Shown in pieces: positions 26,920 to 33,654 of a stretch of 53,133 nt of DNA. The stretch is from the NCBI RefSeq assembly GCF_001939115.1, contig NZ_MQTZ01000011.1, positions 60,864 to 113,996 on the forward strand, in the 5' to 3' direction. The notes below the pieces were generated by a model. The model ran no database searches. It was not told the origin of the DNA and saw only the letters and a program-made list of their open reading frames with translations. This DNA comes from Leptolyngbya sp. 'hensonii'. GTDB taxonomy: Bacteria > Cyanobacteriota > Cyanobacteriia > GCF-001939115. Positions within the stretch are counted from its first letter, which is position 1; each line of letters starts with the position of its first letter. The position numbers were made by a program, and so were the translations under genes.

Positions 26920-28281
26920 TCAGTCTAGCTGGATTCCCTGAATGGAGTAGTCTAGCAGTTGCATGGGGTGGAGGACGGGGACCTGTTTTCCCTGCAATTC
27001 CAGATGGCGGGTAATCTGGACGAAGCAGCCGATATTTGCTGAAGCAATGACATCTGCCTTTGTATTCAGCAGATTGGTCACTTTTTGTTGACCTAATTCT
27101 GCGGCAACATCCGGTTGCAAAATGTTGTAGACTCCGGCACTGCCACAGCAGAGGGCGGCGTCTATGGGTTCTCGGAGCTGGACGCCGGGGATCTGACGCA
27201 ATAATTGCCGGGGTTGCATACTGATTTTCTGACCGTGGAGCATGTGGCAGGCGTCTTGATAGACCAGAGTGAGGGGCTGGTTTTGTAGGGGGGAGAGGGG
27301 TGAGGTGAGCTGGACTTCAGCCAGGAATTCCTGCACGTCTCGAACTTTGTCGGCAAAGGCTCTGGCTTGATCGCGATAAACCGGATCGTCTTGCAGAATC
27401 GTGCCGTACTCTTTCAGGGTGTGGCCGCAGCCAGAGGCGTTGATCAGGATGTAATCAACAGGAGCATCCGCAAAGCTGTCGATTAACTGACGGGCCAGGG
27501 TCCGGGCCTGCTCTTCCTGGCCCTGATGGTGGGAGAGGGCTCCGCAGCAGCCCTGGGTGGCGGGTACGACAACGTCACACCCATTGGCAGTCAATACCCG
27601 TACAGTGGCATCGTTCACGTCCGGGTTGAATAACCGCTGGACACAACCGAGGATCATCCCTACCCGATAGCGGCGTTCTCCCTGGGCTGGAATCAGGGTT
27701 GGGATATTGTCCTGAAATGATTTGATCGAAATCCTGGGGAGCATGGCTTCCATGGCGGCCAGTTGGGGTGAGAGTCGTTTGAGCCAGCCCAACGATCGCA
27801 CCCACTTCTGTAAGGGGGAATTCTGATACAGGCCAGCGGGGAGCAGAAGCAGGCGCAAGCGCTGAGGATAGGGAAAGAGGGAAAAGATGAGTTGGCGCAG
27901 GAGGCGATCGGCCAGAGGGCGAGGATGGTTCCGCTCGATCTGGGGGCGGGTGGCGGCGATCAGTTTGTCGTATTGGACGCCAGAGGGGCAGGCCGTAGTA
28001 CAGGCCAGACAGCCCAGACAGGAATCGAAATGTTGCACAGAAGCACTGGACAGGGGGGCCTGTCCTTCGTTAATGGCATCCATCAGATAGATGCGACCTC
28101 TGGGAGAGTCATTTTCTTTCCCAATCACCCGATAGCTGGGACAGGTGGAGAGGCAGAACCCACAGTGAACACAGGCATCGATCAGGGTTGGATCAGGGGG
28201 GTGCTGGGAGTCAAATTTCTGGTTCGCAGGGATATCGGGGATGATCTCTGGTTCTGCAGCGTGCATCTTACAGGTTGCCAA
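26920..28281 (-). CDS. glcF: Glycolate oxidase iron-sulfur subunit
   Basis: 453 residues. Two 4Fe-4S motifs sit in the N-terminal third: CVHCGFCLSTCPSY and CLGCLACTTACPSG. Two CCG domains follow (GCCGALSHHQG and LCCGSAGVYN). It passes electrons from glycolate oxidation, part of the photorespiratory pathway of cyanobacteria, to the membrane quinone pool (family knowledge). Its start overlaps the glcE stop by 14 bases. The catalytic glcD is not in the window. Confidence 0.93.
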   Translation of the reverse strand: MATCKMHAAEPEIIPDIPANQKFDSQHPPDPTLIDACVHCGFCLSTCPSYRVIGKENDSPRGRIYLMDAINEGQAPLSSASVQHFDSCLGCLACTTACPSGVQYDKLIAATRPQIERNHPRPLADRLLRQLIFSLFPYPQRLRLLLLPAGLYQNSPLQKWVRSLGWLKRLSPQLAAMEAMLPRISIKSFQDNIPTLIPAQGERRYRVGMILGCVQRLFNPDVNDATVRVLTANGCDVVVPATQGCCGALSHHQGQEEQARTLARQLIDSFADAPVDYILINASGCGHTLKEYGTILQDDPVYRDQARAFADKVRDVQEFLAEVQLTSPLSPLQNQPLTLVYQDACHMLHGQKISMQPRQLLRQIPGVQLREPIDAALCCGSAGVYNILQPDVAAELGQQKVTNLLNTKADVIASANIGCFVQITRHLELQGKQVPVLHPMQLLDYSIQGIQLD

Positions 28282-29596
28282 TCACGAAACGACAGGGATT
28301 CAAAAGATTGTGGGGGTCAAACTGCTGCTTCAGACGGCGCATTAGTTCCAGGGCATTACCGGGGTATCCCCAGACCGCCAGTTGCTGTTTCCACGCGATC
28401 GGGGCTTGAAGCACAGATAGAAAGCCACCTCTCGACTGGCACAGGCTACGGAGTTGGAGCAGGCGTTGGACAGAGGCAGAGGAGGCGGGGCTTTGCAGAT
28501 AGCCCACTCCACTCCCAGCATAAATCAGGCCAATGGTCTGATCAGGAATGAGGGATTCCAGTTCCACCAGTAAAGAGGTCGCATCAGAGAGCTTCACCCC
28601 TATTTTGCAGGCTATCACGGCATCTTGCCCATCAGGCTCCATTGCCGATCGTAATCGATGCCATAGAGCGGCCTCATCTGTGTCGGAGCAGGAAGTGCCG
28701 GTCAGGTGCAGGGATTGGCCCAGGTCCAACAATCGCCTGGTTTGTTCCTGCACACTCTCTGCCAGACTTTGAAATCGCAGCATCAAGCCCATGCCCTGTC
28801 CCAATCCCAGAGATTGCACCGTGGGAGCAGACAGGAGATTGAGGCAGGTCGGGGTCAGGGCTGAAGTCAGCAGCGCAGCAGTGGCTTCGGTGATCGCAGT
28901 AGGTTCTCCCGTTAAGATCACGGTCTGGGAGGCTGTCGGTATGGGATAGAGGCGAAAGGTTACCTGGGAAAGAATGCCGAGGGTGCCGTAGGAGCCAGTG
29001 AGTAGTTTCATCAAATCATAACCGGCCACATTTTTAACAACGCGCCCTCCAGCCTTGGCCAATTGACCGTCCGATCGGACAAAGGAGACTCCCAGCACCA
29101 TGTCCCGCACGCCGCCGTAGCGCTGCCGCCAGGAGCCGGTATCTGCAGTGGCCACGATGCCACCGATCGTCGCCTGCGTTCCATAAGCCGGGTCCAGAGC
29201 CAGAAACTGATTGTGCTGAGCCAGGGTTGCCTGCAGCTCAGCAAATTTCATGCCTGCTTCGACGGTGACGGTCAAATCGCCCACGGCATGCTCTACCAAA
29301 CGATTCAGGCGTGTCATGCTGACCCCAATCTGGACCCGATCGGCCAACCCACCCCAGTGGAGTTTAGTCCCGCTGCCGCAGGGCAACAGGGGCCACTGAT
29401 TCCGATGGGCGCAGGCCACGACTTCGGCCAGTTCTGCCTGGGTTTGGGGATAGACCATGCCACCGATCGTGGTGGCTGGTGTGACGGATTGCTGCAGGCG
29501 TTGCCGCCAAGGGTCGTCTAGCTGGTCATAGGGAGTGACAGATCCTGTCCCTACGATCGCCGCCAGTTCTTGGATTAACCTTGTTTCCGTCACCAT
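28268..29596 (-). CDS. glcE: Glycolate oxidase FAD-binding subunit
   Basis: About 442 residues with a PCMH-type FAD domain: YPQTQAELAEVVACAH, LPCGSGTKLHWGG, DPAYGTQATIGGIVATADTG and VVKNVAGYDLMKLLTGSYGTLG. The C-terminal half is shorter than in GlcD, and PHNLLNPCRF closes the fold. It fits GlcE better than GlcD because of this length and its coupling to glcF. The start at 29596 (MVTETRL) is preferred; the upstream start at 29623 adds nine non-conserved residues. Confidence 0.9.
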   Translation of the reverse strand: MVTETRLIQELAAIVGTGSVTPYDQLDDPWRQRLQQSVTPATTIGGMVYPQTQAELAEVVACAHRNQWPLLPCGSGTKLHWGGLADRVQIGVSMTRLNRLVEHAVGDLTVTVEAGMKFAELQATLAQHNQFLALDPAYGTQATIGGIVATADTGSWRQRYGGVRDMVLGVSFVRSDGQLAKAGGRVVKNVAGYDLMKLLTGSYGTLGILSQVTFRLYPIPTASQTVILTGEPTAITEATAALLTSALTPTCLNLLSAPTVQSLGLGQGMGLMLRFQSLAESVQEQTRRLLDLGQSLHLTGTSCSDTDEAALWHRLRSAMEPDGQDAVIACKIGVKLSDATSLLVELESLIPDQTIGLIYAGSGVGYLQSPASSASVQRLLQLRSLCQSRGGFLSVLQAPIAWKQQLAVWGYPGNALELMRRLKQQFDPHNLLNPCRFVIGNL

Positions 29597-29645
29597 GCTG
29601 CCTCTTATGGTTCTTCTGCCCAAGAGACATGGTACAGGTTATGTA

Positions 29646-29813
29646 TCAAATATTTCCGATCTCGGATAACTGCATCACCCCGCTCAAGACACGGTCAAAA
29701 AACCAGGTTTGATCGCAAGTGCAAATCGTCACAAAGTAATTGCCATTCGCAGCATAATTCCAGTGGGGATAACGGGCAGATTCAATCCGATCGCGGTTTT
29801 TGTATCGGGTCAT
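29646..29813 (-). pseudogene. Remnant of a REP-associated tyrosine transposase (RAYT)
   Basis: Only the first 55 codons remain. They carry the RAYT/TnpA_REP start YKNRDRIESARYPHWNYAANG, then YFVTICTCDQTWFF and the GVMQLSEIG motif. A TGA follows directly after GNI; intact proteins continue for another 100-150 residues with the HUH and catalytic Tyr motifs, which are absent. It lies between glcE and the zinc-ribbon gene and next to a REP-like hairpin. Confidence 0.75.
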
Positions 29814-29818
29814 AGGCC

Positions 29819-29841
29819 AGAGACCTGGAGGCCAGGTCTCT
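29819..29841 (-). repeat. REP-like hairpin with GTAG foot
   Basis: A perfect 10-bp stem (AGAGACCTGG / CCAGGTCTCT) with a three-base loop. On the minus strand, the strand of the RAYT remnant, GTAG stands at its 5' foot, as in bacterial REP elements recognised by RAYTs. It starts six bases upstream of the RAYT ATG and overlaps the stop codon of the 29840-30121 gene. Confidence 0.6.
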
Positions 29842-30121
29842 ACTGAAAACCGGAATCCCCATCCTCGGCATCCGACAAATCTTGCATTTTGAATTGGGAG
29901 GGGGGCCGATCGCTGCTCCAGGCCCACCAGGGGGTTCCACATTCGCAATTGTAGAACTCCTGCCATTTGCGCCGATTAGTCTCCGTATAAACCGGCGATC
30001 GACGATTCAACCAGACTTGCAATGCCCCTGTTGGACTGGCTCCACAAGCCGGACAACAAAACTGGTGGGCATGTTTTGCAGGTCCAGTCCAATCCGGCGG
30101 AATTGGTTCAAAGGCGTCCAT
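29840..30121 (-). CDS. Small zinc-ribbon-like hypothetical protein
   Basis: 93 residues. Two cysteine knuckles, CCPACGAS (about 22-29) and CECGTPWW (about 66-73), are spaced as in a zinc ribbon. The segment between them has LQVWLNRRSPVY and KWQEFYN, and a tryptophan-rich end follows. Perhaps a protein-binding or nucleic-acid-binding ribbon; no family recognised. The last residues and stop lie at the edge of the REP-like hairpin, so the C-terminus may have been altered by that insertion. Confidence 0.6.
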   Translation of the reverse strand: MDAFEPIPPDWTGPAKHAHQFCCPACGASPTGALQVWLNRRSPVYTETNRRKWQEFYNCECGTPWWAWSSDRPPSQFKMQDLSDAEDGDSGFQ

Positions 30122-30254
30122 ACGAATAAACTTTTTTGAAGGCAGGCGTAGGGAATCGAATTCTTCTGCTAGGTTAATCGAGTTCTTGCGCCTGAATAGG
30201 GTATTGTTACGCTTATTCTAGGCTGGATCAGCAGCGATGCAATAGGGTTTTAGC

Positions 30255-31958
30255 ATGGGTTATAGCTATCTCAACCTGATTTCCTTCATCGGCATTTTTG
30301 CATTGTGTTTGATTGCCTGGATCTTCTCAGAGGACCGTAAATACGTCCCCTGGCGAGTGATTGGCAGTGGAATCGCCTTGCAATTGTTGTTGGGGTTTTT
30401 CGTCTTTCAGTTTCCTCTGACCCGCGAGATCTTGAACATCTTCAGTAAAGCCCTGGATGGGGTCTTTGCTGCGGCTGATGCAGGGGCAAACTTCGTTTTT
30501 GGATACTTTATGGTTCCAACGCCCGGTCTGGTACCGGGTCCCTCTCAGGCTCCCTTTATCGTGCGCGCTCTTCCGCCGGGAGCAACCCAATGCCCTCCTC
30601 CCCAGATCCCATTCTTACCCGGCTACTGTGGTACAGATAGGCTCAGTTACATCTTTGCGTTTCGCTCCCTGCCAGCAGTTATTTTCTTCTCCGCCCTCAT
30701 GTCTCTGCTCTACAACATTGGGGTGATCCAGGTTGTAACCAACTTCTTTGCTAAGGTCTTTTATCGGACCATGCGTCTGAGCGGAGCAGAATCCCTCAGT
30801 GGAGCAGCCAATATCTTTGTGGGCATTGAAGCTGCGATCGCAGTTAAGCCCTATATTCCCAAAATGACCCGCAGTGAGCTGTGCGCGATTCTAGCCTGCT
30901 GTTTTGGAACAGCCGCTTCCTCCACCCTAGCCATCTACGTGGGTTTCCTGAAGGGAACCTTCCCTAATATCCTGGGGCATCTGGTTTCAGCCTCGATTAT
31001 CGCCATTCCAGCCTGTTTCGTCCTGTCTAAAATCCTCGTGCCAGAAACGGGGATCCCGGTCACAGCCGGAGGTATTCCAGTGGAAGAGGACTTGCCTCCA
31101 GAGGAGATTGATCCCGAGGATGAACAGGCCCCAACAGAAACAGTTGGTGGTGAACCGATCGAGCGGGTCAGCCCGCTGGATGCTGCCATTGTGGGAGCTC
31201 TGGATGGGGTGAAGATGGCGGTTTCCATCGCAGCAGTGTTGATCCTGATTGTGGGTCTGGTCTATCTACTGGACCTGATTTTTGATAGTCTGGCTTCCCT
31301 CAGAACCTTTGGTGATGTCGTGGAAGGGACACCCCCACCCCCCGAAGCCCTATTACCGCTGGCTCCTATCATTCGAGTCGTGGGTCAGTTTTTCAATGTG
31401 GTCAATTTGCAGAACATTGAAGGGGCTTTGTTCTATATCCCAACATTGCTCACGGGTGTGCCTTTTGATGAATCCTGGAAAGCCGCTGTCATTATTGGTC
31501 GGCGATTAACAGAAACGGCTATTCCCCCTTATCAAGAGTTAGGTCGAGCTGCAACTGCTGGGGAATTGAGTAGTCGCACGGTATTGATTGTCAGCTATGC
31601 CCTTTCTGGCTTTGCCCATGTTGCTTCCGTCGGAATTTTTGTTGGAGGCACGATCGCCCTGGCCCCTTCCCGCCGCAAGGATATCTCCCAACTGGGCTGG
31701 AAAGCCCTCTTTATTGGGACCCTGGCAACGCTAATGATTGCTTGCGTCGCAGGTGTCTATGACAATGGTAACCCCAGCATTTTCGGAGAGAAGAAAGCGG
31801 CTCCCCCTCCGGCTCAAGTCAATCCGGCGGCCAGTCCACTGGCTTCACCAACAGCTCCGGCCAGTCCCAGTGCGACCACAACCCCATCTGTGGTTCCCAC
31901 GAGTCCCGCTCCGGTGACCACACCCTCAGCCGCTCCAATCCCACCAAAACGGCCTTAA
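30255..31958 (+). CDS. Concentrative nucleoside transporter (NupC/CNT family)
   Basis: 567 residues, about 9-10 membrane helices. It takes up nucleosides with Na+ or H+. Family blocks include FVFQFPLTREILNIFSKAL, the FRSLPAVIFFSALMSLLYNIGVIQVV region, GAANIFVGIEAAIAVKPYI, MTRSELCAILACCFGTAASSTLAIYVG, and the conserved RRLTETAIPPYQELGRAA segment. A cytosolic acidic loop (about 275-305) and a tail of some 50 residues rich in Pro, Ala, Ser and Thr are unusual additions. It stands alone, ended by a hairpin. Confidence 0.85.
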   Translation: MGYSYLNLISFIGIFALCLIAWIFSEDRKYVPWRVIGSGIALQLLLGFFVFQFPLTREILNIFSKALDGVFAAADAGANFVFGYFMVPTPGLVPGPSQAPFIVRALPPGATQCPPPQIPFLPGYCGTDRLSYIFAFRSLPAVIFFSALMSLLYNIGVIQVVTNFFAKVFYRTMRLSGAESLSGAANIFVGIEAAIAVKPYIPKMTRSELCAILACCFGTAASSTLAIYVGFLKGTFPNILGHLVSASIIAIPACFVLSKILVPETGIPVTAGGIPVEEDLPPEEIDPEDEQAPTETVGGEPIERVSPLDAAIVGALDGVKMAVSIAAVLILIVGLVYLLDLIFDSLASLRTFGDVVEGTPPPPEALLPLAPIIRVVGQFFNVVNLQNIEGALFYIPTLLTGVPFDESWKAAVIIGRRLTETAIPPYQELGRAATAGELSSRTVLIVSYALSGFAHVASVGIFVGGTIALAPSRRKDISQLGWKALFIGTLATLMIACVAGVYDNGNPSIFGEKKAAPPPAQVNPAASPLASPTAPASPSATTTPSVVPTSPAPVTTPSAAPIPPKRP

Positions 31959-33596: not shown

Positions 33597-33616
33597 TTCC
33601 CAGCCACCGCCGCTGT

Positions 33617-33640
33617 ATAGGCGCGATTCATCGCGCCTAT
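33617..33640. terminator. Hairpin between convergent genes
   Basis: ATAGGCGCGAT and ATCGCGCCTAT are perfect 11-bp inverted arms separated by TC. It lies 20 bp after one stop and 14 bp after the other, so it can terminate both. Its CGATTCATCGCG core matches the elements at 17217 and 40328. Confidence 0.65.
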
Positions 33641-33654
33641 ATCGCGTCCGTAAA

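Follow-up and report, generated by a model that had tools for sequence, protein, structure and literature searches.

The window, by which we mean the whole 53,133-nucleotide stretch of DNA analysed (G000:C11:60864-113996, from an assembly of 5.94 Mb in 77 contigs that its genes and the relatives found indicate to be cyanobacterial), contains a short leftwards-transcribed ORF that lies between two other minus-strand genes and is preceded by a perfect hairpin (Table 1). The upstream gene is a conserved one, present in 63 of the 96 genomes searched from the class, and its ORF (30121-29840) stops with TAG.

Table 1. Features at the RAYT remnant and in its immediate surroundings.
Feature	Position in window	Strand	Remarks
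Upstream gene, small cysteine-rich protein, 93 aa	29840-30121	minus	Zinc-ribbon-like by inspection; no Pfam match
GTAGAGAC, foot and stem base of the REP family	29836-29843	minus	TAG at 29842-29840 is the upstream stop codon
REP-like hairpin	29819-29841	minus	Perfect 10-bp stem, 3-base loop
RAYT gene remnant	29646-29813	minus	First 55 codons and stop; HUH and tyrosine parts missing
ORF downstream, resembling a glcD/E oxidase by inspection only	28268-29623	minus	Starts 22 bases past the remnant stop

The 55 residues encoded from the ATG at 29813-29811 align over their full length with the N-terminal parts of intact REP-associated tyrosine transposases (RAYTs), at 51-66% identity, and this bears out the proposal of the first-pass annotation that the ORF is the start of a RAYT gene. 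A protein search of 59 genomes with these residues matched 10 genomes including its own, with a 191-aa protein of genome G033 at the top (E 7e-16, 56% identity); a paralogue in the same genome as the window (C43:139508-139672) is 53% identical to the remnant. A lack of RAYT similarity in a profile search had been named as a refutation. By themselves the 55 residues match no Pfam or NCBIfam family up to E 1, PF01797 and NF047646 included; a three-row profile finds relatives in 106 of the 291 genomes searched, all related genomes used being from the same class. Even the intact G033 protein matches the NCBIfam REP_Tyr_transpos model (E 3e-14) below the curated cut-off, and intact relatives score 53 and 75 bits against NF047646, for which the cut-off is 80. 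Among the named relatives, which come from 80 loci, the best is from Planktothrix rubescens (65%), and others are in records titled Bacteroidetes, Calditrichia, KSB1, Thermoflexales, Moranbacteria and Spirochaetes, among others.

Intact relatives contain the motifs MPNHxHG and YIxNNP. The window ORF ends at codon 55 and has neither the HUH motif nor the catalytic tyrosine; it is therefore a gene fragment with RAYT homology at its N-terminus rather than a RAYT. The C-terminal two thirds are gone, and no further RAYT sequence was found downstream in the three minus-strand frames read. Since the oxidase ORF begins so close to the stop codon of the remnant, the remaining part of the RAYT gene is absent.

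The hairpin reads AGAGACCTGG-AGG-CCAGGTCTCT on the plus strand, exactly at 29819-29841, and AGAGACCTGG-CCT-CCAGGTCTCT on the minus strand (29841-29819), where it starts within the upstream stop codon. The perfect 10-bp hairpin previously described upstream of the ATG is thus exact, although it is separated from the ATG by five bases (29814-29818) and not by six. A GTAG had also been placed at its 5' foot on the same strand; this is present on the minus strand at 29843-29840, but the AG forms part of the stem, and TAG is the codon at which the conserved upstream gene stops, so that the foot is not independent evidence. Including the foot, the minus strand reads GTAGAGAC-CTGG-CCT-CCAG-GTCTCT. 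The pattern was not matched in any of 100 shuffles of the window, and stems of at least 10 bp with a loop of 3 occur at four positions in the window, whereas 30 shuffles average 0.17. An Rfam scan of the window gave no matches.

Hairpins are enriched at related RAYT loci. At the 80 named loci those with stems of at least 10 bp reach a density of 2.29 per kb within 200 bases upstream of the gene, 1.17 per kb inside it and 1.45 per kb within 200 bases downstream, against a background of 0.078 per kb; the upstream density is 29 times background (36 in 15.7 kb versus 25 in 320 kb). Their usual form is GTAGAGAC-apex-GTCTCTAC, with AGAGAC-type cores at 55 of the 80 loci (26 upstream, 47 in the gene and 16 downstream) and none at the other 25; an earlier reading of the motif covered 41 loci, six of them without it. 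The inner five bases are identical in 43 of 58 pairs from within a locus, compared to a fraction of 0.106 of random pairs from different loci. The in-gene REPs (L137-L215, for example L144, L156 and L205) are situated inside the open reading frame in many phyla, and vary in sequence from locus to locus. The window hairpin shares GTAGAGAC with these relatives and differs in having four rather than five pairs in its apex stem, and CTGG where they have CTAC as a second foot; it has no extra outward palindromic arms and looks like a form of the 24-base core with one base deleted.

The hairpin thus has the short, perfect stem and 5' GTAG of a REP and is associated with a RAYT gene, in that the remnant is five bases away and the stem base is the one present at the loci of its relatives. 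Because the ORF resembles RAYT N-termini and the GTAGAGAC stem base is common at RAYT loci, and with the hairpin on the usual 5' side, the suggestion that the pair is a decayed REP-RAYT unit holds up well. Very probably it belonged to subclass 2.4 of TnpA_Y1 (Bertels group 4), with the 5' hairpin and the first 55 codons kept and the remainder deleted. Points against this reading are the five-base spacing, shorter than the 21-161 bases at 28 upstream hairpins measured in relatives, the lack of a curated-profile match for the 55 residues, the stop codon within the foot, a close copy of the hairpin that has no GTAG, the 25 loci at which no core was found, and a position in the RAYT tree without starred support. 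The upstream 93-aa gene is not part of the unit, yet ends inside it. That a chance palindrome should lie beside an ORF with a chance resemblance is scarcely credible: no curated profile matches the 55 residues, and a single GTAGAGAC is not rare (there are six in the window), but GTAGAGAC, a perfect stem and a RAYT start occur here all together, and both the 59-genome search, with its E value to an intact relative, and the three-row profile contradict coincidence, as does the hairpin density at the 80 loci.

The position of the hairpin allows two other interpretations. It could be an RNA element at the 3' end of the upstream gene that stabilizes the message or ends transcription, with the RAYT remnant beside it by coincidence. 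The stem begins inside the stop codon, the hairpin is stable (-20.2 kcal/mol and z -3.6 for the plus-strand 46-mer), and REP-like palindromes between convergent genes of another genus stay paired as both sides change. However, the z value is only -1.8 for the minus-strand 71-mer that includes the end of the gene, a scan of 29300-30400 found neither promoters nor terminators, including T-tract terminators on either strand, and among 19 relatives of the 93-aa gene that were read none ends in GTAGAGAC; the match of the stem base to the RAYT family would also have to be coincidental, and we consider such an element unlikely. The ribosome site of IS200 tnpA is hidden by a 5' hairpin, and the window hairpin could similarly be a regulatory element that masks the RAYT ribosome site and not a mobile REP. 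Its location five bases before the ATG agrees with this, as does an imperfect hairpin seen by eye directly before the ATG of the paralogue in the same genome. The 28 measured upstream hairpins of relatives, in contrast, stand at distances that vary from -21 to -161, and similar sequences are found again within and after the gene, sharing their inner bases within a locus, which makes a purely regulatory role very unlikely.

In the form with a 3-base loop, and allowing up to three mismatches, the hairpin is unique in the 5.94-Mb genome, so that the search for the 23-bp sequence proposed in the first-pass annotation finds no second copy of the exact form, and a single near-copy once the loop is varied. 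The pattern AGAGAC-N4..20-GTCTCT occurs at 34 places, compared to 10 for the control, and one of these is the near-copy, AGAGACCTGGCAGGCCAGGTCTCT (C63:27829-27852), which has the canonical 24-base core with the apex CTGGC and sits just past the end of another gene. It lacks the GTAG foot, for which the first-pass annotation had proposed to inspect the copies. The pattern GTAGAG-N12..20-CTCTAC is present at 18 places (six for the control), mostly as 28-base palindromes with other apex stems. REPs typically occur in many dispersed copies; seen here are one close copy without GTAG and this wider GTAGAG family. A looser pattern, GTAGAG-N10..24-CTCT, was dropped as uninformative because it is no commoner than its control (178 versus 191). 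Small dispersed repeats are reportedly treated by Elhai et al. in 2008.

The paralogue on C43 is frameshifted past about residue 100, and queries with the 55 residues, the profile and a 90-aa sequence found no intact RAYT of this group in the genome, only the remnant and this paralogue. Two RAYTs of other types score above the NF047646 cut-off (C23:25155 and C20:140580). The idea that another active RAYT keeps hairpin copies elsewhere is therefore not sustained, with one close copy lacking GTAG and no intact group member found. With only broken members of the group found, this genome's GTAGAGAC hairpins seem orphaned, although a divergent or unassembled enzyme could exist. The RAYT on C20 (L018, G000:C20:139080-142334; NF047646, 97.7 bits) has an array of CTGGTTCCCAG/CTGGGAACCAG repeats on either side; these repeats form 11-bp hairpins of a different type. 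We also note an IS200-like tyrosine transposase (L016, G000:C43:246357-249701) that is the best PF01797 match in the genome (E 1.3e-20), and whose gene is flanked by long ORFs resembling, by inspection only, CRISPR type III proteins. Across the 291 genomes, in which shared descent is uncontrolled, GTAGAGAC-N6..14-GTCTCTAC is present in 40 of 106 with a RAYT and 30 of 185 without (p 6e-5). Five or more copies are present in 13 of 106 and 18 of 185, respectively (p 0.56), which speaks against a simple rule that genomes with a RAYT have many REPs.

In the genome containing the window, 10 of 14 double-foot copies examined extend outward by at least four paired bases, different in each copy, compared to none of 20 copies in two other genomes (G288 and G177) and 5 of 81 at RAYT loci; copy-specific extra arms are also seen in the genus of G161. 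The outer arms, unique to each copy, reach 18 extra pairs in the genome of the window (L042, L046, L049, L088, L093, L094 and L095) and 11 in the G161 genus (L246-L265). Some cyanobacterial REPs lie inside longer palindromes, according to excerpts of PMC3733652. At one convergent-gene site in five species of the G161 genus (L266, L267, L269, L270 and L271) a REP-like palindrome is kept with four different stems, GTAGAGAC, GTAGGGTC, GTTGGGGC and GTAAGGGC, which pair completely or almost so and in which both sides have changed; this looks like either upkeep at the RNA level or palindrome correction. A comparison of this site in eight genomes was aimed at distinguishing insertion into a hairpin tip from later growth of the arms. 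Five have a REP-like paired hairpin, one an imperfect hairpin, one an unrelated hairpin and one none, and the intergenic sequence is too diverged for an empty site to be read. Within the window, a perfect 12-bp palindrome at 33616-33641, TATAGGCGCGATTCATCGCGCCTATA, has TATA at its foot and an apex resembling the GCGATTAATCGC apex of the double-foot palindromes of this genome.

The literature used for comparison consisted of excerpts of PMC6006769, PMC3733652, PMC3116915 and PMC8266576. Subclass 2.4, as described in those of PMC6006769, has the protein motifs NH[IFV]H and YIxNNP and 'double-foot' REPs that are also inserted in its own gene. The likeness to this subclass (RAYT group 4) extends to the type of N-terminus and the HUH and Y motifs of intact relatives, to the REPs that relatives carry ahead of the gene, in frame within it and behind it, to the GTAG at both ends of relatives' hairpins, and to the abundance in Cyanobacteria. 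The intact relatives have the in-frame REPs and both protein motifs, and the remnant lacks the region in which these would be found. The window differs in that the gene is cut after codon 55, the hairpin has only one foot and an apex stem with one pair fewer, and its genome yielded no intact enzyme of the group. Compared by description, the GTAG-15, GTAG-16 and GTAG-12 cyanobacterial REP families (PMC3733652, excerpts) are likewise short palindromes tagged with GTAG. REPtrons of E. coli and group 3 are similar in having a GTAG-footed hairpin and an HUH/Y1 enzyme and dissimilar in their stems, the excerpts of PMC8266576 being concerned with groups 2 and 3. For the E. coli and group 3 enzymes, the excerpts of PMC8266576 and PMC3733652 describe single-strand recognition of REPs, with GTAG guiding cleavage close to the hairpin.

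The stem base of a hairpin seems to go with the branch of its enzyme. The four bases that follow GTAG at RAYT loci are mostly AGAC, GGGC or GGAC. Of 152 candidate loci, 130 have a readable motif, 119 are distinct after removal of repeats and 113 are included in a tree, short rows and the frameshifted paralogue having been left out. All 13 GGGC loci fall on the same side of one branch, which has SH-aLRT 100, and the remaining typed rows comprise 58 AGAC and three GGAC; the tree requires three stem-base changes, compared to 15.2 in shuffles, with none of 200 shuffles as low. These three named types account for 74 of the 113 rows, and the other 39 are unexplained by the pattern. When loci are sorted by protein start instead, branch A includes two GGGC loci (L021, whose start has no HH, and L031, where a stop codon interrupts the start) and three with other four-base types. 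The remnant sits in the tree without starred support and on a long end branch (0.76 versus a median of 0.33); four of its five nearest rows are typed, and all four are GTAG-AGAC, as is the window hairpin.

We tentatively suggest that the four base pairs beside GTAG might act as an address, AGAC for the KNKYRxESxR-like branch and GGGC for the HHRRSIRL-like branch, with a few GGAC, while the apex is free to vary. The AGAC branch would then span many phyla, with the apex shared mainly within one locus, and the window hairpin would be an AGAC fossil left after the last group enzymes of this genome broke. Excerpts of PMC6006769 distinguish two REP types in subclass 2.4, one with three G-C pairs at the bottom of the stem and the other double-foot. 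The branch-by-branch match of the stem base and its spread over phyla are a new, modest finding, of which the excerpts searched contain no statement.

As a history of the locus, we propose that a complete subclass 2.4 unit once resided here, with the gene for the small cysteine-rich protein on one side and that for the oxidase on the other. By analogy with characterized relatives, its HUH/tyrosine enzyme, acting on single strands, would have recognized and cut GTAG hairpins around and in its own gene, and this single-strand chemistry may have moved or multiplied the unit before it was truncated. The deletion would have taken everything past the first 55 codons, including the in-gene and 3' hairpins, leaving the 5' hairpin, short of a single apex base and of its second foot, overlapping the upstream stop codon. 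The unit was presumably active in the past, and the remnant probably has no function at present.

The locus itself is a commonplace relic of an element already described, and it is a clean example of a possible order of decay in which the enzyme goes first and the hairpin last. The match between enzyme branch and stem base, found while collecting relatives of the remnant, is sharp across phyla, and hairpin recognition by group 4 enzymes, which the literature excerpts leave open, therefore becomes testable with a few oligonucleotides.
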